IMG/VR virus record: IMGVR_UViG_3300045996_001687
Location: 1-43,303 of that record
Strand: one strand, 5' to 3'
DNA length: 43,303 nucleotides
Source of the DNA: a virus
Made by a program: the position numbers and the translations under genes. Shown here in pieces: positions 5,440 to 38,563 of this stretch; position 1 is the first letter of the stretch, and each line of letters starts with the position of its first letter. Under the pieces are notes generated by a model, which did not search any database, was not told where the DNA came from, and worked only from the letters and a program-made list of their open reading frames with translations.

Positions 5440-6240
5440 ATGGACAAGATCCACCGCCGGCCCACCGCAGTGGCCACCAGCGTCCTGGTTATCGGCATCG
5501 TGGCCAGCCTGGCCGGCAACGTCCAGGCCATCCACCTGGACAACGCGGCGCCCGGAGTGGGCGCGCACGTCTCGGCCATCTTCTGGCCGGTCATCCTGTT
5601 CGGCACGGTGGAGCTCCTGATCCACGTCCCGTGGATGGCCAGCTGGCGTGACCGGCTGACCAAGGGCGCCGTCCTGCTGCTGGTGGCCGCGGTGGCCGGC
5701 TGGGTGTCCTACTGGCACCTGGCCCATGTCCTGTCCAGCTACGGCTACGACGTGGCCAGCCGCTACGTGGGGCCGCTGGCCGTGGACGCGGCCATGGTCC
5801 TGGCAGCGTTGGCACTGAACCGGGTTGGCCAGGCCAGGCGCCTGGCCGCGGAGCTGGCCATGGCCGATGTCCAGCCCGATGTCCAGGTGGCAGAGGTGGA
5901 CGTCCAGCCTGATGCCCAGCCCGTCCAGCTGGACACGTACGCAGGCTCGGCCGGACGGCTGGACAGCGTGGCCGATGAGGCCCGGACGTGGCTGGACAGC
6001 CTGGAGGACACCCGCGGCAGCCAGGAGCCCACCATGCCCGTCCCGGTGAGCCCGGCGCCGGCTGCCCGCGTCCAGCCCGAGAAGGTCCCGGCCGAGGCAG
6101 CCGAGCTCATCCGAGCTTGGGCCGCCACGGACCAAGCGGACCGGCCCCGCGCGGGCGACGTGGACGCCCTGGTGGGCGCGCACGAGGGCGTGTCGCCGCG
6201 GACGGCCCGCGGCTGGCGCGCGGTGGTCCTGAGCTCCTGA
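5440..6240 (+). CDS. DUF2637 / SpdB-like membrane protein
   Basis: A 266-residue protein with about four transmembrane segments in the first 135 residues. The signature WVSYWHLAHVLSSYGYD followed by RYVGPLAVDAAMVLAALAL is that of DUF2637 proteins, found on actinomycete conjugative plasmids and integrative elements beside transfer genes (Spd functions). A Val/Gln/Asp-rich linker follows (residues 145-170), then a C-terminal helical domain ending in GVSPRTARGWRAVVL that looks like a helix-turn-helix. The start is ATG 5440, after GAGCGAGGGAGCAAGG (5422-5437); ATG 5416 lacks a good site. It faces the FtsK/Tra-like gene at 7051-8874, the typical plasmid partner. Own promoter and terminator. Confidence 0.8.
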   Translation: MDKIHRRPTAVATSVLVIGIVASLAGNVQAIHLDNAAPGVGAHVSAIFWPVILFGTVELLIHVPWMASWRDRLTKGAVLLLVAAVAGWVSYWHLAHVLSSYGYDVASRYVGPLAVDAAMVLAALALNRVGQARRLAAELAMADVQPDVQVAEVDVQPDAQPVQLDTYAGSAGRLDSVADEARTWLDSLEDTRGSQEPTMPVPVSPAPAARVQPEKVPAEAAELIRAWAATDQADRPRAGDVDALVGAHEGVSPRTARGWRAVVLSS

Positions 6241-6251
6241 GCGGCACGTGA

Positions 6252-6282
6252 GGCCCCGCGGCCGGCGCCGCGGGGCCCTTCG
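6252..6282 (+). terminator. Intrinsic terminator
   Basis: Stem GGCCCCGCGG (6252-6261) / CCGCGGGGCC (6268-6277) with a 6-base loop, 12 bases after the stop at 6240. Confidence 0.75.
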
Positions 6283-6338
6283 CTCACATGGCCCTTGACC
6301 AGGCAAGAGGCGGGTCCGAGGACTTAGGCCAGAGGGGG

Positions 6339-6368
6339 TTGCGGACCCTGGGCTACGTCTGCTATAGT
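6339..6368 (+). promoter_or_regulatory. Promoter for 6414
   Basis: -35 TTGCGG (6339-6344), 18-base spacer, -10 TATAGT (6363-6368) then TAAGGTAC. Contains a perfect CTACGTCTGCTATAG (6353-6367). Confidence 0.82.
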
Positions 6369-6413
6369 TAAGGTACAGCAAGGGGGACGGGCCCCCGGGA
6401 GACGGAGACCGAG

Positions 6414-6659
6414 ATGAAGAAGATCAGGATCGACTGGTTCAACCAGGACAGCCGGATCGGGACCCCGGGCGAGGCCGAGTTCGTCAACCCGCAGGAGGCC
6501 CAGCGCAAGGTCATCCAGCTGAAAGAGGTCTCCACGATCATCTCGATCAACATCGACTACGTCACCGGCCGCCAGCAGTGGAGCCGGGAGGTCGGCGGGA
6601 CCTGGAACCAGGACTACTCCTACGACTCGGCCAGGGACAACGTCGCTCAGCCTGCCTGA
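6414..6659 (+). CDS. Small hypothetical protein
   Basis: An 81-residue protein (MKKIRIDWFNQDSRIGTPGE...), less GC-rich in amino-acid choice than its neighbours: many K, I, N, Q and few A or R. It looks like an alpha/beta domain (VNPQEAQRKVIQLKEVSTII, SINIDYVTGRQQWSREVGG). The leader is about 40 bases, with ribosome site GGGAGACGGAG before the ATG. It is a self-contained cassette with its own promoter and terminator. Not recognised. Confidence 0.75.
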   Translation: MKKIRIDWFNQDSRIGTPGEAEFVNPQEAQRKVIQLKEVSTIISINIDYVTGRQQWSREVGGTWNQDYSYDSARDNVAQPA

Positions 6660-6699
6660 CAGACCAGAGGCCCGGCCCCGGGAAGGGGGCCGGGCCTCT
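6656..6699 (+). terminator. Terminator cassette, copy 1
   Basis: Stem AGAGGCCCGGCCCC (6666-6679) / GGGGCCGGGCCTCT (6686-6699). The 44 bases from the gene's stop codon to the end of the stem are repeated at 6970-7013 with two mismatches. Confidence 0.85.
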
Positions 6700-6727
6700 T
6701 GCGTGCTCGGTCTACGTCTGCTATAGT
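6699..6727 (+). promoter_or_regulatory. Promoter for 6734 (leaderless)
   Basis: -35 TTGCGT (6699-6704), 17-base spacer, -10 TATAGT (6722-6727), then ATGGGT and ATG 6734. Contains a perfect CTACGTCTGCTATAG (6712-6726). The -35 box directly abuts the preceding terminator stem. Confidence 0.85.
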
Positions 6728-6733
6728 ATGGGT

Positions 6734-6973
6734 ATGACGCAGACAGGGACCATCGCCACCGCTCAGATCAACGGCTCCACGATCACCATCGTGGAACGGA
6801 CCCACCGCCTGACCGGTCAGGCGATCTTCGTAGTGGAAGAAGCAGCCATGGGTTACCTGAGCACGTGGGATATCAAGGACAGTGAGCTGGAGGCGCGAGA
6901 GAGCGCTAGCCGTCTTTGGACTCGCCGTGCTGGCAAAGAGACCATGATCGGATGCGGTCCCTCGGCCATCTGA
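6734..6973 (+). CDS. Small hypothetical protein, leaderless
   Basis: A 79-residue protein, MTQTGTIATAQINGSTITIV... It begins with beta-strand-like repeats and has a helical middle (SELEARESASRLWTRRAGKE). The ATG at 6734 is six bases after the -10 box; another ATG at 6728 would be upstream of the expected start site. Own promoter and terminator. Lower GC than the structural genes. Function unknown. Confidence 0.7.
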   Translation: MTQTGTIATAQINGSTITIVERTHRLTGQAIFVVEEAAMGYLSTWDIKDSELEARESASRLWTRRAGKETMIGCGPSAI

Positions 6974-7013
6974 CAGACCAGAGGCCCGACTCCGGGAAGG
7001 GGGCCGGGCCTCT
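6970..7013. terminator. Terminator cassette, copy 2, between convergent genes
   Basis: A 44-base copy of 6656-6699 with two mismatches, both in the stem. It separates the rightward gene ending at 6973 from the leftward FtsK-like gene ending at 7051. Confidence 0.8.
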
Positions 7014-7040
7014 CTGCTATAGCGCGTGAGAGCGCTCTCT
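7002..7040. repeat. 39-bp perfect inverted repeat, right copy
   Basis: Exact reverse complement of 4726-4764, including GCTATAGC (7016-7023) and the palindrome GAGAGCGCTCTC (7028-7039). Confidence 0.9.
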
Positions 7041-7050
7041 TGCCGGTAGC

Positions 7051-8874
7051 TCACCCGGCCAGCTGCCGGCTCTCCTCCCGCCACCTGATCAACTCGTCCA
7101 GGTCATACAGCCGCGCCTCGGTCCGGCCGTACGGCGTCCCGTCCGGCTTGTCCAGCGGCACCGGGAAGCCCGGCCGGCCGGCCGCTGTCCGCAGCCCTTC
7201 CAGCGTCAGCCGCGCCGGCCCGTCCTGGCCAGGCAGTTGGCCAAGCGCGTCTGCCAGCTTCACCGCCTGGCCAACCGCCGGCACTGTCCAGCTGTCCACC
7301 TGGCCATGGCCACTCTGCGGCCCCAGGACAGGACCGTGGACGGGGCCACTGGCCAAGACCTCAGCCAGGGCGTCCGGTTCGGACAGCCAGGGCACCCGGA
7401 AGATGTGGAAGTCCTCGCCCTGGGCCAGGCCCCAGATGCCGCGGGGTCCGGTCGGGCAGGCCACATAAGCCAGGGTGTCCACCAGCATCTTCCAGAGCTT
7501 GCGGTCCCAGCGGGCGATGAACCGGCCACCCTGGAAGCTCTCCCGGATGTCCCCGCCGTTGCCACCGAAGACGTTCGCGCTCGCCCGCTGGGCCATCACC
7601 ACCACGTGGATCTTGATCTCACGGCCCATGCACACGCTCTCCTGCATGGCCACGATGGCCGGACTCTGGACGGGTGGGTCCAGGTCGGCCGGGTCAAACG
7701 GTCCGTCGTCGGCCTGGGCCAGCTTGGCCGCCAGCATCAGCTCCTTGCGCACGCCGCGCCAGTACCGCTGGAGCTTCTTGGTCTGGACGTTGGCTTCCTC
7801 CACCACCACGAACACCCGGCGCTGCTGCTCGAGTTCGTCCTCCGGGAGCTCGATGCGCCGCCTGATCTCCTCGCCCACGGCCATCCAGGCGTCGTGCAGG
7901 TCCGCATCTCGGTAGGCATAGATCACCCGGTCGGTAGGCAGCTTGCCGCCGCCGGCCCAGCGCCAGTGCGAGAAGCGCTTGGGGTCCAGGATGACCAGGC
8001 CGTCCCCGCGGATGGCCCGCTGGACCATGAAGACCCGGCCCAGCACCGTCTTGCCCGTGCCGGCCGCGCCGGACATGAGCACGTGCGGGCTGTCCTCGCT
8101 CAGGCTGACCTGGACAAGGTGGCCGCCGGTCTTGCGGCCTACCACTACCACGTCCTCGGGCGCCTCGGCGATGGCCCTGCGGAGATCCGCCCAGGTGACC
8201 TTGTCCGGCGGGAGCGGCGCGGCGTAGAGCTCCACGCACACGTCGTTGCCGAACTCCCGCCAGTCCGCGCTGACCGGCGCCGGGATGCCCAGCCGCGCGC
8301 CCACGTTCTCTGTGATCTTGCGCTTGAGCGCCACCGAAAGAGGCGTGCCCACCGGGATCTGCACTCGAGCGGCCAGGCGCTCCTGCTGGCCCACCCGGCC
8401 GGCGCCCCAACCCTCGGGAAGCTGGATCCCGCGGCGGGCCGAGCGCCGGACGTAGCGCGTCCCCAGGATCTCCGACAGCACGCGGGCCGCGGGGTCCACC
8501 CACTCCTTGTTGAGCCGGCGGCCCCGCCACGCAGTCCGGACCCGTAGGACGCCCCAGCTGGACGCTCCGAGCACCAGGGCGGCCAGGTAGGCCCAGAGGG
8601 CCCAGAGCTCGACCCAGGGCGTCACGGCCCAGAGGGCCAGCCAGAACGGCACGGTGATGGCCGCGTGTCGGCGGGCCAGGCGCTCCCACTTCCTGCGGGT
8701 CAGCTTGGTGTAGGGCCGCGCCCGGTAGTCCACCGTGGCGTGGTGGAGGAACGTGGCATTGTCACCCGGCCCACGGAGCTGCTGGCCGGTGATGAAGTAG
8801 CGGTGGAGGATGCGGAGGGCGATCGGGATCTTGGTGTGCTCACCACGCACGGAGAGCAGCGGCTGGGCTGGCAT
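7051..8874 (-). CDS. FtsK/SpoIIIE (Tra)-like DNA translocase
   Basis: A 607-residue membrane-anchored ATPase. Two transmembrane segments lie at about residues 71-110. The motor domain has Walker A GAAGTGKT (269-276), the FtsK-type VILDPKR (about 294-300) and Walker B RVFVVVEEAN (353-361), then an arginine-containing IKIHVVVMAQRAS motif. The C-terminal 100 residues have a Gly/Pro-rich linker and a small basic domain (GTPYGRTEARLYDLDELIRW) that may bind DNA. In actinomycetes this architecture is typical of the plasmid double-strand transfer protein (TraB/TraSA) and of FtsK itself. With the SpdB-like gene nearby, a transfer or segregation role is likely. A GGAGGG site precedes ATG 8874. Confidence 0.85.
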   Translation of the reverse strand: MPAQPLLSVRGEHTKIPIALRILHRYFITGQQLRGPGDNATFLHHATVDYRARPYTKLTRRKWERLARRHAAITVPFWLALWAVTPWVELWALWAYLAALVLGASSWGVLRVRTAWRGRRLNKEWVDPAARVLSEILGTRYVRRSARRGIQLPEGWGAGRVGQQERLAARVQIPVGTPLSVALKRKITENVGARLGIPAPVSADWREFGNDVCVELYAAPLPPDKVTWADLRRAIAEAPEDVVVVGRKTGGHLVQVSLSEDSPHVLMSGAAGTGKTVLGRVFMVQRAIRGDGLVILDPKRFSHWRWAGGGKLPTDRVIYAYRDADLHDAWMAVGEEIRRRIELPEDELEQQRRVFVVVEEANVQTKKLQRYWRGVRKELMLAAKLAQADDGPFDPADLDPPVQSPAIVAMQESVCMGREIKIHVVVMAQRASANVFGGNGGDIRESFQGGRFIARWDRKLWKMLVDTLAYVACPTGPRGIWGLAQGEDFHIFRVPWLSEPDALAEVLASGPVHGPVLGPQSGHGQVDSWTVPAVGQAVKLADALGQLPGQDGPARLTLEGLRTAAGRPGFPVPLDKPDGTPYGRTEARLYDLDELIRWREESRQLAG

Positions 8875-8931: not shown

Positions 8932-9159
8932 ATGAAGCGAGACATGTCGGCCCCGAACTGGGCCCGCACCCTGGCCAGGCTGCGGCGCAACATGCAGGAG
9001 CTCCGGGAGCACGACTGCCAGGTGATCGAGCCGCCCAACTTCGAGACCCCGCCGGCCCACCGCGGGACCAGCTCAGGCCCGCCCAACGGCCCGGCCGTGA
9101 TGATCGGTGAACACGGCCCGGAGTTGCTGCTGGACAGACCTCACCACCCTCTGCTATAG
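8932..9159 (+). CDS. Small protein with a tape-measure-like GEHGPEL motif
   Basis: A 75-residue protein. The N-terminal half is a basic amphipathic helix (RTLARLRRNMQELREHDCQV). The C-terminal half is proline/glycine-rich and contains GPAVMIGEHGPELLLD. That resembles the VGEHGPEMIVP motif near the C terminus of this phage's own tape measure protein (about residue 588). The significance is unclear. The stop codon TAG (9157-9159) is part of the CTATAG promoter of the next gene. No ribosome site is seen; the start may be leaderless. Confidence 0.6.
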   Translation: MKRDMSAPNWARTLARLRRNMQELREHDCQVIEPPNFETPPAHRGTSSGPPNGPAVMIGEHGPELLLDRPHHPLL

Positions 9160-9160
9160 T
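9155..9160 (+). promoter_or_regulatory. Promoter -10 for 9250-10715
   Basis: TCTGCTATAGTAGACGTAG: TATAGT at 9155-9160, flanked on both sides by parts of the common element, so it reads nearly as a palindrome. It overlaps the stop codon of the previous gene. The leader to ATG 9250 is about 80 bases. Confidence 0.7.
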
Positions 9161-9249
9161 AGACGTAGCGGGGCCGGGAACGAGCTGATGCAAACTCCCG
9201 GACCTGGCCCCGCACACCAACCCAGCCGATCGGAACGGAGATAGTGATC

Positions 9250-9525
9250 ATGTGCCAGCACTGCGTGGACGAGAATCTGATGACGGCTGCCGAGCTGACC
9301 GAGCGCCTGGCTGCCGGGGACAAGAGCATCGTCTCCATGGGTGACCTGGGCCCGGAGGACTTTGCCCAGGAGCTGACCAAGCTGATGCTGACGGACATCG
9401 CCCGCGGCATCAGCCCGGACCAGGCGGTGGCCGCCGGGATCATGGCCGCCAAGGAGTACGTCAAGGCCCGTGGCTACGGCGCCGAGGTGGAGGCCACCTT
9501 CCTGGCCCAGCTGGACGCGCTCTGA
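9250..9525 (+). CDS. Hypothetical protein
   Basis: A 91-residue, largely helical protein: MCQHCVDENLMTAAELTERL... It begins with a CxxC pair that could bind metal. The GGAACGGAG ribosome site (9232-9240) is well spaced for ATG 9250, not for the GTG at 9244. Helices are likely at 11-27, 37-52 and 58-90. The stop overlaps the next ATG (TGATGA). It heads a five-gene overlapping operon of mainly membrane proteins. Function unknown. Confidence 0.75.
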   Translation: MCQHCVDENLMTAAELTERLAAGDKSIVSMGDLGPEDFAQELTKLMLTDIARGISPDQAVAAGIMAAKEYVKARGYGAEVEATFLAQLDAL

Positions 9526-10136
9526 TGAACCCCTGGATCACGGTATCCCTGTCCAGCTTCACGATCATGTTCGTGGCGCTGGCCTGGGCGCCGCTCAAGC
9601 GCTGGATCAAGAAGTGCAAGCGGCGCAAGGGCGGGGTCTACGGCTGGCGCGTGCGCCACCACCTGTACCCGACCAAGCGCGTCTGGGGCTACGTCGGGGA
9701 GTCCGTCAGCTTCGCGCTGCGCAAGCAGCAGCACCTGGGCTCCAGTCGGTTCGATCCCCGGACAGGCCAGCCGGTCAAGAGCAGCGCCAAGGGAATGGTC
9801 ATGCTCAAGGTCCCGGCTCAGCCCTGGACCGATCTGGACCCGGTCATGCACGTGATCATCCCGTTGCCGTGGTGGCTCTGCTGGAAGTGGGTCCTGCGGC
9901 CGCTGGAGACGCTGGCCATGCTGTGCACCTGGCCGGTCTACAACGACGCCAAGAACCACTGGAACCCGCGGCGCATCCCCAAGAACCTGGCGAAGATCCA
10001 GCGCGCCCGCCGGGACGCCGGGACCGTGGCCTACAAGGTCACCGTGGCCACCGGCCGCTGGCTCGGGACGGCGTGCCGCGTCGTCGGGCTGCTGCTCATC
10101 CTGGCCGGCCTCGGTGCGGCGCTGAGCACGCTGTGA
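9525..10136 (+). CDS. Membrane protein, unknown function
   Basis: A 203-residue protein with an N-terminal span (about residues 4-24), a central hydrophobic tryptophan-rich region (VIIPLPWWLCWKWVLRPLET, about 110-135) and a C-terminal span (about 180-200, GLLLILAGLGAALSTL). Between them are strongly basic stretches (KRWIKKCKRRKGG; RRIPKNLAKIQRARR). Next to the FtsK/SpdB-like genes it could be part of a membrane complex, but that is a guess. Overlaps both neighbours (TGATGA and GTGA). Confidence 0.7.
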   Translation: MNPWITVSLSSFTIMFVALAWAPLKRWIKKCKRRKGGVYGWRVRHHLYPTKRVWGYVGESVSFALRKQQHLGSSRFDPRTGQPVKSSAKGMVMLKVPAQPWTDLDPVMHVIIPLPWWLCWKWVLRPLETLAMLCTWPVYNDAKNHWNPRRIPKNLAKIQRARRDAGTVAYKVTVATGRWLGTACRVVGLLLILAGLGAALSTL

Positions 10137-10327
10137 CCAAGCGGCGTGCCGGGACCACGTGCGACTTCTCCGGCAAGCGCCGGTACCGGGACAAGACCGA
10201 GGCCACCAACGCCGTCCGGACCTTCCAGCGGAACAGCGAGCGGGACGTGATCCCGGTCCGCGTCTATCCCTGCCACATGTGCAAGGGCTATCACCTCACC
10301 TCTCAACCCTTCAGGGAGAGTCCATGA
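10133..10327 (+). CDS. Small zinc-ribbon-like protein
   Basis: A 64-residue basic protein from GTG 10133 (GTGA overlap). The order KRRYRDKTEATNAVRTFQRN, then VIPVRVYPCHMCKGYHLTSQ is a pattern seen in many short actinophage proteins. CHMC, the following His and an earlier Cys (TTCDFSG) could bind zinc. Probably nucleic-acid-binding. The stop overlaps the next ATG (ATGA). Confidence 0.75.
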   Translation: MTKRRAGTTCDFSGKRRYRDKTEATNAVRTFQRNSERDVIPVRVYPCHMCKGYHLTSQPFRESP

Positions 10328-10479
10328 AGATCACTTCCGTCCTGGGCCTGGTCGTGGGCCTGCTGCTCATCCTGACCGGCTCGGCCCTGGCCACGTTCGG
10401 CGTGGCCGGCATCGAGCCGGGCCTTCCGTACTCCGGGCCGGTCAACGTGTCCACGATCCCCAACCCGCTCGGGCGGTGA
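10324..10479 (+). CDS. Small membrane or secreted protein
   Basis: A 51-residue protein. Residues 5-28 (SVLGLVVGLLLILTGSALATF) form one hydrophobic span or an uncleaved signal, followed by a short Gly/Pro-rich tail. Ribosome site CAGGGAGAG lies before ATG 10324. ATGA and GTGA overlaps on either side support it. Confidence 0.65.
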   Translation: MKITSVLGLVVGLLLILTGSALATFGVAGIEPGLPYSGPVNVSTIPNPLGR

Positions 10480-10715
10480 CCGTGAACCGGGAGCTTGCGA
10501 GGAAGCGACCGGCCAACGCGCCGAGCACTGCCCGAGTGATCCAGGGCCATCTGGTGGCCACCGGGCGGCTGGTCCAGCAGCGGACCTTCCTGGAGCGCGT
10601 GACCACGCCCGCGGACTGGCCGGCCTCCGTTGTGCTGCTGCTCCACCTGGCTCTGGCCAGCGGGGTGGTTCTGCCGATGGTGTGGCTGGCGGAATTTCTC
10701 GGCAGCCTGGACTAG
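10476..10715 (+). CDS. Small membrane protein
   Basis: A 79-residue protein starting at GTG 10476 (overlaps the previous stop). A basic N-terminal half (NRELARKRPANAPSTARVIQ) is followed by a hydrophobic span at about residues 50-72 (SVVLLLHLALASGVVLPMVW). Last gene of this operon. Function unknown. Confidence 0.65.
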   Translation: MTVNRELARKRPANAPSTARVIQGHLVATGRLVQQRTFLERVTTPADWPASVVLLLHLALASGVVLPMVWLAEFLGSLD

Positions 10716-21936: not shown

Positions 21937-22864
21937 TGCGGGCCCTCCAGCGGAACGGGAACGCGGTGGAGGCGTAGACCTGGCCGCCGCCGGACCCCAG
22001 GTGCATCAAAGCGAAGGTCACGTTGCCACCGGACAGGTCACCCGACTCCACCGTGAAGTCCATGAACGTGCTCAGCGGATGCAAGGCCCCGCCGGCCAGC
22101 GGGTACATGGACGGGTCGCCCTCCGCGCCACCGGCCGGGCTGGCCGTGCCCGTGCTGGCGTACCGGACCGGGGAGCCGCCCACCAGGACGGCCAGCTCGT
22201 AGAAGCTGCTGGCGGTGTGGCTGATCAGGCAGGCCAGGTCCAGGGAGACGTTGTCACCGATGGCTGCCGGGATGGCCAGTGTGAGGCCTGCGACCGGTGT
22301 CCAGGACGCGTCCGCGGAAATGGCCACGTTGCCGCTGGTGACGATATCCCGCGCGAAGGTCGGTGCCGTCCCGCCGCCGCCGCCGCCACCACCGGACGCG
22401 GCGATGGTCAGCGTGCCGGCGCCGTCATCGTAGGTCGCGGTGACGTTGGCACCGGCCACCACCATGGCGCCCACGGTGTCCTGGACGGACTCGGCCAGGC
22501 CGGTCACGTCCGCGGTCACATGGGCGTGGCCGGCGGCGGACTTGCCCTCCAGGGCGCCCTGGAGGCCGGTCACGTCCGCGATGGCGTGGCCGTGGTTGCC
22601 GACTGCCGCGGTGGAGCCGGTGGAGCCCAGGGCCAGGGAGCTGGTGCCGGCACCGATGGCCGTCCGGGCCGCCGCCGCGTCGGCCGCGGTGAGTACCGAT
22701 CGGCCCACGGCGGTGGAGTCGGACACGTCCACGGCCACGTGGGTGTGCACGGTGGGCGCCTTGCCGGCCAGGGCTGCGGTCAGGCCGGTCACGTCCGAGA
22801 TGGCCACCGGCCCGCCCTCGCCACCACCGCTCGGCGGATTGCTGGTGTAGCCGGTGGCTGCCAC
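21923..22864 (-). CDS. Collar-repeat fibre protein in the head module
   Basis: A 313-residue protein. The first 130 residues have three repeats of the type DVTGLxxALxGKxxxxHxH (ISDVTGLTAALAGKAPTVHT; IADVTGLQGALEGKSAAGHA; VTADVTGLAESVQDT), the signature of trimeric tail-fibre or collar shafts. A glycine run follows (about 158-167, GGGGGGGG) and then a beta-rich C-terminal head. It lies between the capsid and connector genes, so it may be a head fibre or collar fibre and not a tail fibre. It overlaps the adjacent glycosyltransferase gene. Confidence 0.68.
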   Translation of the reverse strand: MAATGYTSNPPSGGGEGGPVAISDVTGLTAALAGKAPTVHTHVAVDVSDSTAVGRSVLTAADAAAARTAIGAGTSSLALGSTGSTAAVGNHGHAIADVTGLQGALEGKSAAGHAHVTADVTGLAESVQDTVGAMVVAGANVTATYDDGAGTLTIAASGGGGGGGGTAPTFARDIVTSGNVAISADASWTPVAGLTLAIPAAIGDNVSLDLACLISHTASSFYELAVLVGGSPVRYASTGTASPAGGAEGDPSMYPLAGGALHPLSTFMDFTVESGDLSGGNVTFALMHLGSGGGQVYASTAFPFRWRARNDHQ

Positions 22865-23775
22865 TACCGGATCCCGTCTCTCACTCGCGGAATGACCAGA
22901 CCGGCGCGGCTATAGAGCTCGGCCGTCCGGGCGATCTCGTGACCCTTGGCCTGGATCAGGGTCTCCTGCTGCATGGCGTACGCCGTCTCGTCCAGGAAGA
23001 TCCCGCCCTTGTAGTGCGTGGTCTTGATGCTGGTGTCCACGCCCATCTCCAGGCCGGACGCCTGCACGCGCACGCAGAAGGACAGATCCTCGGAGAAGGT
23101 CCGAGGCGTGCCGTTGCCGCCGGCCGTGGCGTCCGTGATCGGCATGAACGGGTCCGGGCCGACCGCGGTCAGGGCCTCGCGGTGGACCAGCAGGCACGCG
23201 GCGCCGGTCCCGGCCACGTGCTGGAAAGCGTCCCGCCGATACTTACCGATGGCCTGGAATCCGCGCTCACCGTTCGGCCGCTCCTGGTAGGAGTAGAGCG
23301 TCGGCTGGATGCGGTAGCGCGCGGCATAGAGCTCGTTCTGGCGGAGGTCCGGGTCCAGCTTCTGCGCGAAGCACAGCGCGCCCAGGACCGGCACGGAGTT
23401 GGCCTCGGCGGACTCCACCAGGCGATCCACGGTGTCCGCGGCAAAGCCCATGTCCGAGTCGACCATGAAGAGCCATTCCGCATCCGTGTGCTCCAGGAAG
23501 TAGCGGGCCACCTCGTTACGGGCGCCGGCCAGGCCCATGGTGCCGGACACGCGCCGGACGTACTGGCCGCCCTCGCGGATGATCCGGTTACTGGTGGCCG
23601 CGTCCCGCAGCATCAGGTCCGTCCAGGACAGGCCGAAGCACGCCGCCCATTCCTGGCCGTCGACCACGGCCGGGATCACCGAGCCGGGCACGTACGCGGT
23701 CTCGGGCGGCAAAGGCATTCCGTCCGGGCCTTCCGGCACGTCGTCACCTTCCTCTGCCCACAACGCGTTGGTCAT
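22864..23775 (-). CDS. Glycosyltransferase, GT-A fold
   Basis: A 303-residue protein. GLAGARNEVARYFLEHTDAE followed by WLFMVDSDMGF (DxD at 106-108, nucleotide-sugar/metal site), then VPVLGALCFAQK, AGTGAACLLVHREAL and SEDLSFCVRV(Q) match GT-A glycosyltransferases, GT2-like. It is coupled to the fibre gene and sits in the head module, so virion glycosylation (fibre or capsid) is the likely role; glycosylated virions are known in actinophages. An acceptor cannot be deduced. A CTATAG (22910-22915) lies within the end of the gene. Confidence 0.75.
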   Translation of the reverse strand: MTNALWAEEGDDVPEGPDGMPLPPETAYVPGSVIPAVVDGQEWAACFGLSWTDLMLRDAATSNRIIREGGQYVRRVSGTMGLAGARNEVARYFLEHTDAEWLFMVDSDMGFAADTVDRLVESAEANSVPVLGALCFAQKLDPDLRQNELYAARYRIQPTLYSYQERPNGERGFQAIGKYRRDAFQHVAGTGAACLLVHREALTAVGPDPFMPITDATAGGNGTPRTFSEDLSFCVRVQASGLEMGVDTSIKTTHYKGGIFLDETAYAMQQETLIQAKGHEIARTAELYSRAGLVIPRVRDGIR

Positions 23776-35176: not shown

Positions 35177-35699
35177 GCTTACGAGCGGACCCGGTGGCTA
35201 CCGCCCGTTCGCACGCCAGGCAGTCCACCAGATCGAGCCGGTCCACCAACCGAGCCCGCATCGGGCCCATGTCCTCGCCCACGAACAGGCACGCGCTGTG
35301 CTGGATGACGCCACGCCCGTCAAAGATGGTCCGCTGGAGCAAATGCACGGGCGCCGGGATCAGGTGGTCACCCTCGCGGTCCCGCCAGTGCCGGACCAGC
35401 CCGGTTCGGATCAGCTCGTTGATCACGGTGGAGAGGTTGCGGCCGAGCCCGGTCAGGCTGCTGCCGGTGGGCGGGAACCAGCGACCGGCCATGTTCCGAT
35501 ACGGCCGGGTCCCGTAGTACTCCAGGGCCAGCAGCACGCGGGCCGTGGCCTCATCCGTGCACGCCTTGTCCTGCCACCGCTGAGCCACGCGCAGCGCGCT
35601 GGTGGGCTGGATGTGGGCCGCGGCCCGGGTGGCCCAGTTGGCCCCATCCTCGGTAGTGGTCAGATCCGGGTTCATGGAGTGCTGTGCAATCTCGCTCAT
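35172..35699 (-). CDS. Possible winged-helix replication-region protein
   Basis: A 175-residue protein. The middle (TARVLLALEYYGTRPYRNMA, SSLTGLGRNLSTVINELIRT, GLVRHWRDREGDH) has the pattern of a wHTH with helix, recognition helix and wing. The C terminus has a CLAC pair. It is transcribed from the iteron region and is the first gene to the left of the candidate origin, so it may be an initiator or regulator. The start is ATG 35699, 11 bases after the predicted start site. Confidence 0.55.
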   Translation of the reverse strand: MSEIAQHSMNPDLTTTEDGANWATRAAAHIQPTSALRVAQRWQDKACTDEATARVLLALEYYGTRPYRNMAGRWFPPTGSSLTGLGRNLSTVINELIRTGLVRHWRDREGDHLIPAPVHLLQRTIFDGRGVIQHSACLFVGEDMGPMRARLVDRLDLVDCLACERAVATGSARKL

Positions 35700-36014
35700 G
35701 CACTCATCCTACCACGGCTATAGCATGCCTGGATCCACTCTGGGGCCAGAGCTGTCCGCCTCCCGCAGGGGTGACAGGCACCTGACAGGCAGCCTGTCAG
35801 GTCGTTTTCCCAGGTCAGGGGCCGTTTTTGGGCTCAGGTGACAGGGGTGACAGGCAAAAGTGCATTGTTTGTTCCATGCGTGCGCGTGTGCGCGCGTGAG
35901 AGAGATGTTTTCCATACTTAGCCTGTCACCCCTGTCACCTAGGGTCTGAGCTGCAAAAACAGCTGACAGGCACCCTGTCAGGTGCCTGTCAGCTGTCCGA
36001 TATGCCCTGTCACC
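35700..36014. other. Iteron-rich noncoding region, candidate replication origin
   Basis: 315 bases without a gene. TGACAGG occurs in both orientations at 35772, 35783, 35793(-), 35839, 35848, 35922(-), 35931(-), 35964, 35974(-), 35985(-) and 36006(-), with one more at 36082(-) just inside the SF3 gene. Between the clusters is a less GC-rich stretch (35855-35920). This is the layout of an iteron origin, beside SF3 helicase and prim-pol genes. Confidence 0.75.
35717..35722 (-). promoter_or_regulatory. Promoter -10 for 35699
   Basis: Minus strand TATAGC followed by CGTGGTA, like the site at 5286. The leader is about 11 bases. It lies at the edge of the iteron region. Confidence 0.65.
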
Positions 36015-37409
36015 TCAGGCCGAGTAGGCCCAATCGCCGAACGGCTTGACCTTGGCGAGGGCCGTTTCCGACAGCCCGATCCCTGTCAGGTGCCATACCT
36101 TGGCCTGCCCGATCCGCTTGTCCGAGATCCCGGGCCGTTCCGCCAGCCGGTGCCGCAGCGTGGTCACGTCCGTGGCGTCCTTGGTCCGGCCCATGTCCTC
36201 GCACCAGCGGCGGTAGGCCTCAAAGAGCTCCTGCTGAGACACCTTCAAGTCCTCGCCCACGGTGCACATCTGCTCCAGGAACTCCGCGTCCGGGTCGGCG
36301 TACTCCCGGAACCGGGCGTCCACCTGGCCGTGGCTCTCGGGCCGGGTGAAGCGGCCTTGCTTCTCCAGGCGGTCCAGCCCGTCCAGGGCCCAGTTGAGGA
36401 TGCCGGGCAGCTCGGCCATGAGCCGGTCCTCCAGCGTGATGTCCTCCCGGCCGGCGAACGACACCGAGAACCGGATGTGGGTCATGCGGTTGGCCAGGGC
36501 CCCGGACCGGTTGATCAGTCGCGGCGTCTCGTTGCTCAGGATCATGAACCGGACCCCGAGGTGGCCCACCCACTCGGTCTGGTACTTCCGGTTTGCCCGC
36601 ACCTGATCGTTGCCGGTGATCCGGAGCAGCGGCTCCACCACCTCACCCGCAGCCCGCGAGGCCCATTTCGGTTCGCTGATCGTGGCCAGGCTCTTGCCGA
36701 TCAACCCGGACAGCCCGTACTCGCCGGCCAGGTCGTTCAGGGTCACGCCGGTGGTGTGGCCAGGCCCCAGCATGGCCTCCAGCACGCGCACGATGACGCC
36801 CTTACCGGACCGGCTGGCGCCCACCAGGCTGGCCATCATCTGGTGGTCTGTCCGGCCGCTGAGCACGTAGCCGAACCACTCCTGGAGGAAGTCGTGTGCC
36901 GTGGTGTCGCCGGGCAGGCTGCTGTCCAGGAAGGCCAGCCACTCGGCCGGGACGGCGTCCGGGACGTAATCGAACGGCAGGCTGGTCAGGTTGAACCGCA
37001 ACGGGCTGTGCGGTAGCAGGACCCGCTGGCCGTCCGGGTCCGTCTCCACCACGCCGTTGGCCAGGATCAGCCCGCGCACGTCCTCCCCGGTGCGCTGGAG
37101 GGCGCCGCGGCTCAGGGCATGCTCCAGGTCCGCGATCTTCTTCCGGGTGGGCGCCCACGGAACCACCTTGTCCTCGCCCTTGCTGTCCTTACCCACGTAC
37201 GTGGCCGTCTCGGTGGCCTGGTAGAGCCACTGGATCACCAGATCGTCCTGTTCCGGCGTCCAGTGCCGGCCGGTCCAGGTGTAGTAGGACCCGCGCCACC
37301 AGGCCAGGTCACCCGGGTACCGGGTGGCCAGGGTCCGTGCCACCTTGAGTGGCTGGTTCGGGTTGTCGAGTTCGTGCGTGCCCAGCTCCCGTTCGCTCTG
37401 CTGAGTCAC
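36015..37409 (-). CDS. SF3 (D5-like) replicative helicase
   Basis: A 464-residue protein. An N-terminal D5_N-like domain (SYYTWTGRHWTPEQDDLVIQ) is followed by SF3 motifs: A, LVGASRSGKGVIV (197-204); B-type region SLATISEPKW; C, HLGVRFMILSNE with sensor Asn; and an arginine finger region (ALANRMTHIRF). The C-terminal domain (EAYRRWCEDMGR) is typical of phage/plasmid D5 primase-helicases. It pairs with the prim-pol gene (ATGA overlap), and its end lies next to the iterons. Confidence 0.88.
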   Translation of the reverse strand: MTQQSERELGTHELDNPNQPLKVARTLATRYPGDLAWWRGSYYTWTGRHWTPEQDDLVIQWLYQATETATYVGKDSKGEDKVVPWAPTRKKIADLEHALSRGALQRTGEDVRGLILANGVVETDPDGQRVLLPHSPLRFNLTSLPFDYVPDAVPAEWLAFLDSSLPGDTTAHDFLQEWFGYVLSGRTDHQMMASLVGASRSGKGVIVRVLEAMLGPGHTTGVTLNDLAGEYGLSGLIGKSLATISEPKWASRAAGEVVEPLLRITGNDQVRANRKYQTEWVGHLGVRFMILSNETPRLINRSGALANRMTHIRFSVSFAGREDITLEDRLMAELPGILNWALDGLDRLEKQGRFTRPESHGQVDARFREYADPDAEFLEQMCTVGEDLKVSQQELFEAYRRWCEDMGRTKDATDVTTLRHRLAERPGISDKRIGQAKVWHLTGIGLSETALAKVKPFGDWAYSA

Positions 37410-38464
37410 CGTGCCACCTTCCGCATCAGTGCCGAGTACGCATCCGTAGGCGGCTGGTCATCGATGATCGAATACGGCTCCCGGCTCAGGCCCTGGCTGA
37501 GCGCGTCCTTCAGTCGGCTGTCCAGGGTCCAGCTGCGCCGGTTGGCGCGGTTCCAGGCGTCCGAGTGCACGCCGTTCTTCTGGGCCGCGGCCACCAGGAT
37601 CTCCTTGGCCTGCTCCAGGGTGAACAGCCCGGCGTTGGCCATCCGGGCGAACCAGATACCGGCCCCGCCCAGGGTCTTGTTGACCGTCCCCTCCGTCATG
37701 GTCAGGACGTTGTGGAGCTGGGTCAGCGTGTGGTTCTCGGCCACGGTGCGGCGGATGATCTGGCCGGCCGCATCCCATCCGTCGTCCTCGATCTCCTCAG
37801 CCTTCTCGGCTCGGAGGTTGCCGCCGCCGGTCCGCTGGGCCGCGGGCGAGTCCACCGGTGCGGTCAGCAGCTCCTGCCACGCCTCGGGCAGCACGGGCAG
37901 ATCGATCACCCGCGGCGGCGGCCCGTCCAGTCGGCGCCCGTCCGGGCCGTACCAGTGATAGAGCGCGCCACCGGCGGACAGGTTGACCGAGGGCCAGGCC
38001 ACCGCGTACCGGCGCCCGTAGTGCAGGATTTCGATGTTCGGGCCGTAGGCCTTGGCCAGGATCTCCTCCGCACCCGGGATGGCGATGCGGCCCATGCCCG
38101 TGCGGTAGAACCGGTGCCCGGCGTCGCCGGACCCGCGGGCAGTGTTGCGGTAGGTCGGCGGTAGCTGTCCCAGCTCGGCCTCTGCGGCGGCCAGGGTGGC
38201 CGCGCCGGCATGGCCCTCGTATTCGTCCACGTCCAGGCCGATGACCTGGCGCGGCATCCGCAGGCCCAGGTTGCGCCGCGCGAAGCGCTCCTGCTCCGTG
38301 CCCAGCTTGATCCGCGCCCAGCCGATCGGTGGTGCGTCGTATCCAGTCACGCCCTTGGGGACGGGTGACTTGGCCAGTGGCTCACGGTCGGTGCCCACCG
38401 GGAACACGTCCGCCCAGCCGCGCTGGTAGTACGTGAGCGCTGCTGCTCCGTACGGTCCGGTCAT
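37406..38464 (-). CDS. Primase-polymerase (bifunctional DNA primase/polymerase, N-terminal)
   Basis: A 352-residue protein from ATG 38464 (or 356 from ATG 38476; neither has a strong ribosome site). Prim-pol motifs: FPVGTDREPLAKSPVPKGV, IGLDVDEYEG (DxD, metal), SGDAGHRFYRT (S/H motif) and RRYAVAWPSVN (third motif). The C-terminal 130 residues are a helical domain. With SF3 helicase it forms a self-sufficient replication pair known from actinomycete plasmids and phages. No separate DNA polymerase was found. Confidence 0.85.
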   Translation of the reverse strand: MTGPYGAAALTYYQRGWADVFPVGTDREPLAKSPVPKGVTGYDAPPIGWARIKLGTEQERFARRNLGLRMPRQVIGLDVDEYEGHAGAATLAAAEAELGQLPPTYRNTARGSGDAGHRFYRTGMGRIAIPGAEEILAKAYGPNIEILHYGRRYAVAWPSVNLSAGGALYHWYGPDGRRLDGPPPRVIDLPVLPEAWQELLTAPVDSPAAQRTGGGNLRAEKAEEIEDDGWDAAGQIIRRTVAENHTLTQLHNVLTMTEGTVNKTLGGAGIWFARMANAGLFTLEQAKEILVAAAQKNGVHSDAWNRANRRSWTLDSRLKDALSQGLSREPYSIIDDQPPTDAYSALMRKVAR

Positions 38465-38510
38465 CTTTGGTACCATTTCTGTGCGGATTGAACTGGATAG
38501 CTGACTGGAA

Positions 38511-38541: not shown

Positions 38542-38563
38542 CTGGGCTGATCAGCGTATGCCG

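Follow-up and report, generated by a model that had tools for sequence, protein, structure and literature searches.

A convergent DUF2637-like and FtsK/TcpA-fold gene pair with internal TGGMCA arrays in a lineage of tailed phages: a candidate plasmid-related DNA translocation module

The closest described counterparts of the locus presented here are the transfer systems of the Streptomyces plasmids pSVH1, pIJ101 and pWTY27, in which an FtsK-related membrane translocase (TraB or Tra) is combined with short repeats near or inside the transfer genes and with a DNA-binding membrane partner of the Spd type (PMC3583192, PMC4170104). As recounted in PMC3583192, a C-terminal winged helix-turn-helix (wHTH) lets TraB bind repeated 8-bp motifs, and TraB forms hexamers and pores; its interaction partner SpdB2 is a membrane protein that oligomerises and binds DNA (PMC4170104). 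The clt locus of pWTY27 comprises 16 bp inside traA and 159 bp beyond it (PMC3583192). Conjugal transfer genes, among them an FtsK-like gene, are also carried by pZL12 (phage ZL12), a tailed plasmid-phage of Streptomyces (PMC3583192). The present locus is a pair of genes for a DUF2637-like membrane protein and an FtsK/TcpA-fold membrane ATPase on the IMG/VR record IMGVR_UViG_3300045996_001687, whose 43,303 bp were analysed in full and are referred to as the window. With moderate confidence the pair is read as a plasmid-related double-strand DNA translocation module working on the phage's own genome.

An earlier note on this DNA, written from the letters alone, had set a DUF2637-type protein (5440–6240) beside a 607-residue FtsK-like ATPase (7051–8874), and the pair is real: the genes occupy the plus and the minus strand, converge and are conserved (Table 1). 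A few small open reading frames (ORFs) separate them in the window, and both are convergent neighbours in the window and in 14 of 14 related genomes of uncultured soil phages (lineage I) where both can be read. A protein search of IMG/VR recovered the ATPase in 11 contigs at 54–65% identity, with the DUF2637-like partner adjoining in all, and a twelfth contig was located via the DUF2637-like protein, where the two genes are adjacent as well. Adjacency accordingly holds for 12 of the 12 phage loci first retrieved (two of them, L007 and L008, near-identical) and for each of three loci added by profile searches (L021, L024 and L054). The phage ATPases form a single clade in the ATPase tree (14 rows, 100/100), with L054 standing apart on a long branch. 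Among 50,697 records of cultured phages a single ATPase match was obtained, in Dagobah (29% identity), and three different DUF2637-type queries gave no match in cultured phages.

Table 1. Features of the locus and of the putative replication region in the window.
Feature	Position	Strand	Basis or remark
DUF2637-like, Spd-like membrane protein	5440..6240	+	266 aa; alternative ATG at 5416
FtsK/TcpA-fold membrane ATPase (translocase), 607 aa, winged-helix-like C-terminal tail	7051..8874	-	homology, AlphaFold2 model, fold search
TGGMCA array in DUF2637-like gene	5732..5998		9 strict sites; 14 across whole gene; frames 1, 2
TGGMCA array in ATPase gene	7149..7355		9 strict sites; frames 0, 1, 2; linker just before C-terminal domain
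Membrane-anchored GIY-YIG-motif protein, third conserved gene of locus	9525..10136	+	motif residues; C-terminal transmembrane (TM) segment
Small one-TM protein beside GIY-YIG gene	10476..10715	+	one TM segment
Iteron array, 11 copies TGACAGG/CCTGTCA	35770..36015		noncoding gap beside Prim-Pol/D5 replication genes; outside transfer module

The most informative feature of the module is the arrays within its reading frames. Both genes are packed with TGGMCA (variant CGGACA) beyond what the protein sequences demand, an observation new to this analysis. TRS-like repeats, for which the earlier note had proposed a search, exist inside both genes. The intergenic gaps beside the pair hold no TRS-like 8-mers except promoter-like GCTATAGC repeats, and the search was therefore turned to the gene interiors; the dense clusters were first seen when the full records of relatives were scanned for clustered short repeats. 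Two forms of the motif were distinguished, the strict TGGMCA and a looser YGGMCA, which includes CGGACA. The array motif is TGGCCA in most phages and TGGACA (= TGTCCA) or CGGACA in others. The two densest 250-bp segments of the window contain nine sites (from 7126) and eight sites (from 5751), compared with a mean of 0.86 per 250 bp. With the strict motif, the top two segments fall in the pair in six of seven whole genomes, the window included, and in the seventh (G013) the segments of the pair are among the top four.

Coding constraints were controlled by synonymous-codon shuffling, in which the observed count of the looser motif was reached by 0 of 200 shuffles in all 30 gene tests. After the same control, TGGCCA, TGGACA or CGGACA ranks first among 2,080 hexamers in 13 of 15 phages, and second or third in the other two. 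The hexamer test gave no TGGMCA-type enrichment in five control modules (L039, L040, L042, L083 and L084) and placed CGGACA at rank 2 on plasmid pRL2, whose DUF2637 gene holds nine CGGACA within 250 bp. Array sites fall in all three reading frames, which indicates that selection acts on the DNA. A covariation between the motif variant (TGGCCA or GGACA) and a residue of the ATPase tail (YGR or YGQ/S/L) was considered as well; several phages fit the pattern, L021 breaks it, and the idea was dropped.

A blind scan for clustered 8-mers placed the strongest cluster inside the module in 31 of 45 distinct loci (10.8 expected). At loci of the type found in actinobacterial integrative and conjugative elements (AICEs) the cluster typically lies where the FtsK gene ends (positions 0.97–1.01); this position matches clt of pWTY27, so that the scan serves as a positive control. 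It also locates the pRL2 array in the DUF2637 gene and the pFRL6 array in the ATPase gene. The 45 loci are partly related and do not represent independent samples, which makes the p-values too favourable, and the positional agreement is the stronger argument.

The Pfam profile FtsK_SpoIIIE (PF01580) scores the ATPase below threshold (14.8 against 24 bits), compared with 38.8 bits for Tra of pIJ101. The predicted fold of residues 118–518 is clearly FtsK/TcpA-like, with an FtsK/SpoIIIE-type RecA core, and is nearest to TcpA (Z 25.2), followed by FtsK (Z 23.0). TcpA is the coupling ATPase for conjugation of pCW3. In the putative N-terminal membrane part AlphaFold2 places a helical hairpin (60–82/90–137), of which simple hydropathy marks one segment, 92–110. 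The C-terminal tail is conserved and adopts a helix-helix-strand-helix arrangement in the model. The ATPase also matches a terminase-labelled PHROG family weakly (1.5e-7); an identity as the terminase was ruled out, since a separate TerL and portal are present.

For the DUF2637-like protein, AlphaFold2 predicts four long TM-like helices at the N-terminus, a disordered linker and a C-terminal three-helix unit resembling a helix-turn-helix (HTH). The window protein reaches 15.1 bits with Pfam DUF2637 (PF10935), under the cut-off of 22.8, which is passed by orthologues at the same place in L012 (45.3 bits) and L005 (31.3 bits); at E≤0.1 DUF2637 is matched by 56 of the 61 members of the protein family. 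A fold search of the PDB with the model gave no significant match. SpdB of pIJ101 matches no Pfam family, DUF2637 included, and gave no match with the DUF2637-like profiles; these sequence comparisons speak against treating DUF2637 and SpdB as one and the same. Relatives of the DUF2637-like protein in sequenced genomes are for the most part from Micromonosporaceae. The open paper that mentions DUF2637 is, judged by its title and abstract, not about function.

Beyond lineage I, matches to the ATPase were obtained in 47 plasmid records (28–34% identity), as against the one cultured phage, and the closest relatives of the ATPase there are pRL2-11-type proteins of Streptomyces and Planobispora plasmids. 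The matches are therefore not limited to phage proteins, and the ATPase clusters with those of plasmids, so that the outcome named in the earlier note as refuting its reading did not arise. A DUF2637 gene adjoins the pRL2-11-type ATPase gene on pRL2, pPR2, pFRL3 and pFRL6, just as in the phage, at about 30% identity between the ATPases; on pFRL6 the ATPase is annotated as Tra protein and lies beside a conjugal transfer protein. The CGGACA array of pRL2 is inside the DUF2637 gene and the array of pFRL6 in the ATPase linker, whereas that of pPR2 lies about 1 kb downstream and that of pFRL3 between both genes. In contrast to the convergent phage pair, the plasmid genes share one strand. The fully read plasmids pRL2 and pPR2 have no annotated virion genes, and no GIY-YIG relative was detected at the plasmid loci examined, two further differences from the phage.

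In the ATPase tree (midpoint root, long branches) phage and plasmid-type ATPases are split 100/100 from pIJ101 Tra and the FtsK proteins of AICEs, which leaves the phage ATPase outside the TraB/AICE clade. The clustering with TraB that the earlier note had named as a check was not found, the ATPase grouping with the pRL2-11-type plasmid proteins instead; the kinship with plasmid genes suggested in the note is supported, but the specific links to TraB and SpdB are not supported in the form given there. A further difference from the TraB/Tra systems concerns the repeats, which lie at the 3' end of tra there and within both genes in the phage. At 33 other loci, chromosomal and viral, DUF2637 stands beside a distinct FtsK-type protein of about 720 aa, which shows that DUF2637 is repeatedly paired with FtsK-type motors from different lineages. 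The AICE-like modules of Micromonosporaceae are built from these two genes, the ATPase gene bearing a repeat cluster at its 3' end, but they differ in ATPase clade and repeat motifs, often include a GntR regulator and at some loci have an integrase-like neighbour. Phage pZL12 is a precedent for an actinophage that is also conjugative, though its FtsK belongs to another family: gp071 gave no match to the phage ATPase family, and the neighbouring proteins checked gave none to the DUF2637-like profiles. With 90 kb and annotated ParAB and integrase/recombinase genes, pZL12 also differs in size and content.

The following observations argue for a translocation module: the strict co-occurrence and convergence of the pair; nearest outside relatives that are plasmid ATPases, several of them beside DUF2637 genes; a predicted fold nearest to TcpA and then FtsK; the recurrence of the DUF2637 partnership with a different motor; and the enrichment of TGGMCA arrays in both genes, with AICE/clt as positive control. 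The plasmid kin and the arrays also lend support to the idea of the earlier note that these genes might form a device for moving phage DNA. In such a module, the ATPase would assemble into an FtsK/TraB-like ring at the membrane, while its tail or the HTH-like unit of the DUF2637-like protein would bind loading sites in the form of the TGGMCA arrays, much as the 8-bp TRS at clt are bound by TraB. The DUF2637-like protein may form or gate the membrane passage, through which the ring would pump circular phage DNA across cross-walls into adjoining compartments or cells of a filamentous actinobacterium, and the phage would thereby spread as naked DNA, before or in place of lysis. The experimental template for this mechanism is TraB with SpdB2 (PMC3583192, PMC4170104); by analogy the module would work like TraB/Spd, yet by sequence it is not of the TraB family. 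Septum-to-septum spread would probably be its purpose. The wider proposal, a tailed actinophage lineage with a second, particle-free way of spreading, equipped with its own machine for double-strand DNA conjugation or spread and with arrays in the two genes of that machine, by which the genome is pumped through hyphal cross-walls or between mycelia, is put forward tentatively, as possible rather than probable.

Several points weigh against the proposed translocation module. The wHTH-like tail of the ATPase has no Pfam match, and no paper was found that reports DNA transfer by pRL2-11-type ATPases or by pRL2. Lysogeny genes are not evident in the lineage, and the filamentous habit of the host is presumed. 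In G013 (IMGVR_UViG_3300035091_000016) two more dense TGGMCA arrays occur at about 35200–36100, at a distance from the pair and within or close to overlapping ORFs. With the looser motif the DUF2637-like and ATPase genes of the window rank third and fourth of 52, two other genes standing higher, which is a weakness of the window taken alone.

Among the alternatives, a segregation or partition device is the most probable, though itself unlikely: the translocase would distribute an extrachromosomal prophage to daughter compartments or spores, and the arrays would be a parS-like anchor, not a start of transfer. No tyrosine or serine integrase was found in any lineage-I record (some of which are fragments), and plasmid-like replication genes and an iteron array are present, which speaks for such a device. 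The parS loci of mycobacteriophage RedRock consist of eight 8-bp repeats (PMC7157519), and Streptomyces plasmids show overlapping spread and stability functions (PMC4170104). However, no ParA or ParB match (PF13614, PF02195) was obtained in the 17 lineage-I records searched, and the pair is closer to plasmid transfer genes than to par genes.

Superinfection exclusion or takeover of the host membrane, in which a complex of ATPase, DUF2637-like and GIY-YIG proteins blocks or cuts incoming DNA and the arrays mark self DNA, is improbable. Arrays concentrated in the module's own genes suit loading better than a genome-wide self mark, and the membrane-anchored GIY-YIG-motif protein, whose conservation at the locus speaks for exclusion, had no counterpart among the plasmid loci examined. 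Slightly less probable again is a helper of packaging or ejection, which would drive phage DNA into heads or away from membrane injection sites. The weak PHROG match and the FtsK-like folds of many phages speak for it; against it, the phage already has a conventional TerL and portal, and the ATPase stands out by its predicted membrane domain, its DUF2637 partner and its plasmid relatives. The lowest probability is given to the arrays having arisen only through low-complexity linkers and tandem duplication, in a plasmid-derived cassette that now does nothing to move phage DNA. Repetitive linkers and visible tandem duplications (e.g. in G002 and G011) fit this origin, but the counts above all synonymous shuffles, the occurrence of the motif in three frames and the presence of the same motif family in divergent phages and on pRL2 argue against it.

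The question behind the proposed translocation module is how phages cope with multicellular, septate hosts, where lysing one compartment does not obviously carry an infection onward. A septal DNA pump on a phage would, if true, be a concrete answer to this problem, and would make phages and conjugative plasmids harder to tell apart, with neither integration nor par stabilisation of a prophage involved. Moreover, actinobacterial plasmids and chromosomes carry many DUF2637/FtsK modules that are still uncharacterised, and the synonymous-codon test for in-frame repeats may expose their recognition sites, which until now had to be mapped one plasmid at a time.

The window has a 127-bp perfect direct terminal repeat, in view of which it is most likely a closed contig, and a G+C content of 68.5%. 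It encodes TerL, portal, protease, major head and major tail proteins and thus represents a tailed double-stranded DNA phage; the fuller records of the lineage likewise are tailed phages (portal, terminase). The terminase relatives of the window are mostly from actinobacteriophages, and a contig scan with the ATPase alignment revealed no prophage relatives in sequenced genomes.

The iteron array is likely the replication origin. It was set aside as a candidate transfer site: it is intergenic, it lies beside replication genes and its cluster sequence varies between phages (CCTGCA in G011 at 22196, CCCGCA in G012 at 38559), whereas TGGMCA is shared. Prim-Pol was matched in six of the 17 records searched, the window included. 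In the window Prim-Pol and a D5-type helicase are two adjacent genes (36015–38476); in several relatives the Prim-Pol match lies within one open frame of about 775–940 aa. These genes and the array resemble those of plasmids.

Of the small membrane proteins noted earlier at 9525–10715, the GIY-YIG-motif protein has a C-terminal TM segment and the product of 10476–10715 a single one. In the GIY-YIG protein the residues Y, R, GY.G, R, H, E and N are invariant in 16 sequences; the Pfam match is weak and found in three of the 16, and the profile gave no match among PDB sequences. A relative is present in all lineage-I loci from the protein and profile searches that cover the site, and also in L023, a more distant 31-kb viral contig. 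Positions 1–3862 of L023 encode the ATPase and the GIY-YIG-motif protein and include, at the end of the contig, a TGGACA array, but within this stretch a DUF2637 gene is absent. The smaller neighbour may correspond to a conserved neighbour family (cluster 15) in relatives.

Promoter-like TCTGCTATAGY repeats and AGAGGCCCGG...CCGGGCCTCT hairpins occur in the window at 4726–5084, 5275–5409, 6347–7040 and 9142–9168. They flank single genes around the pair, as if these were separate transcription units. A glycosyltransferase-like gene (22864–23775) is located amid the structural genes.

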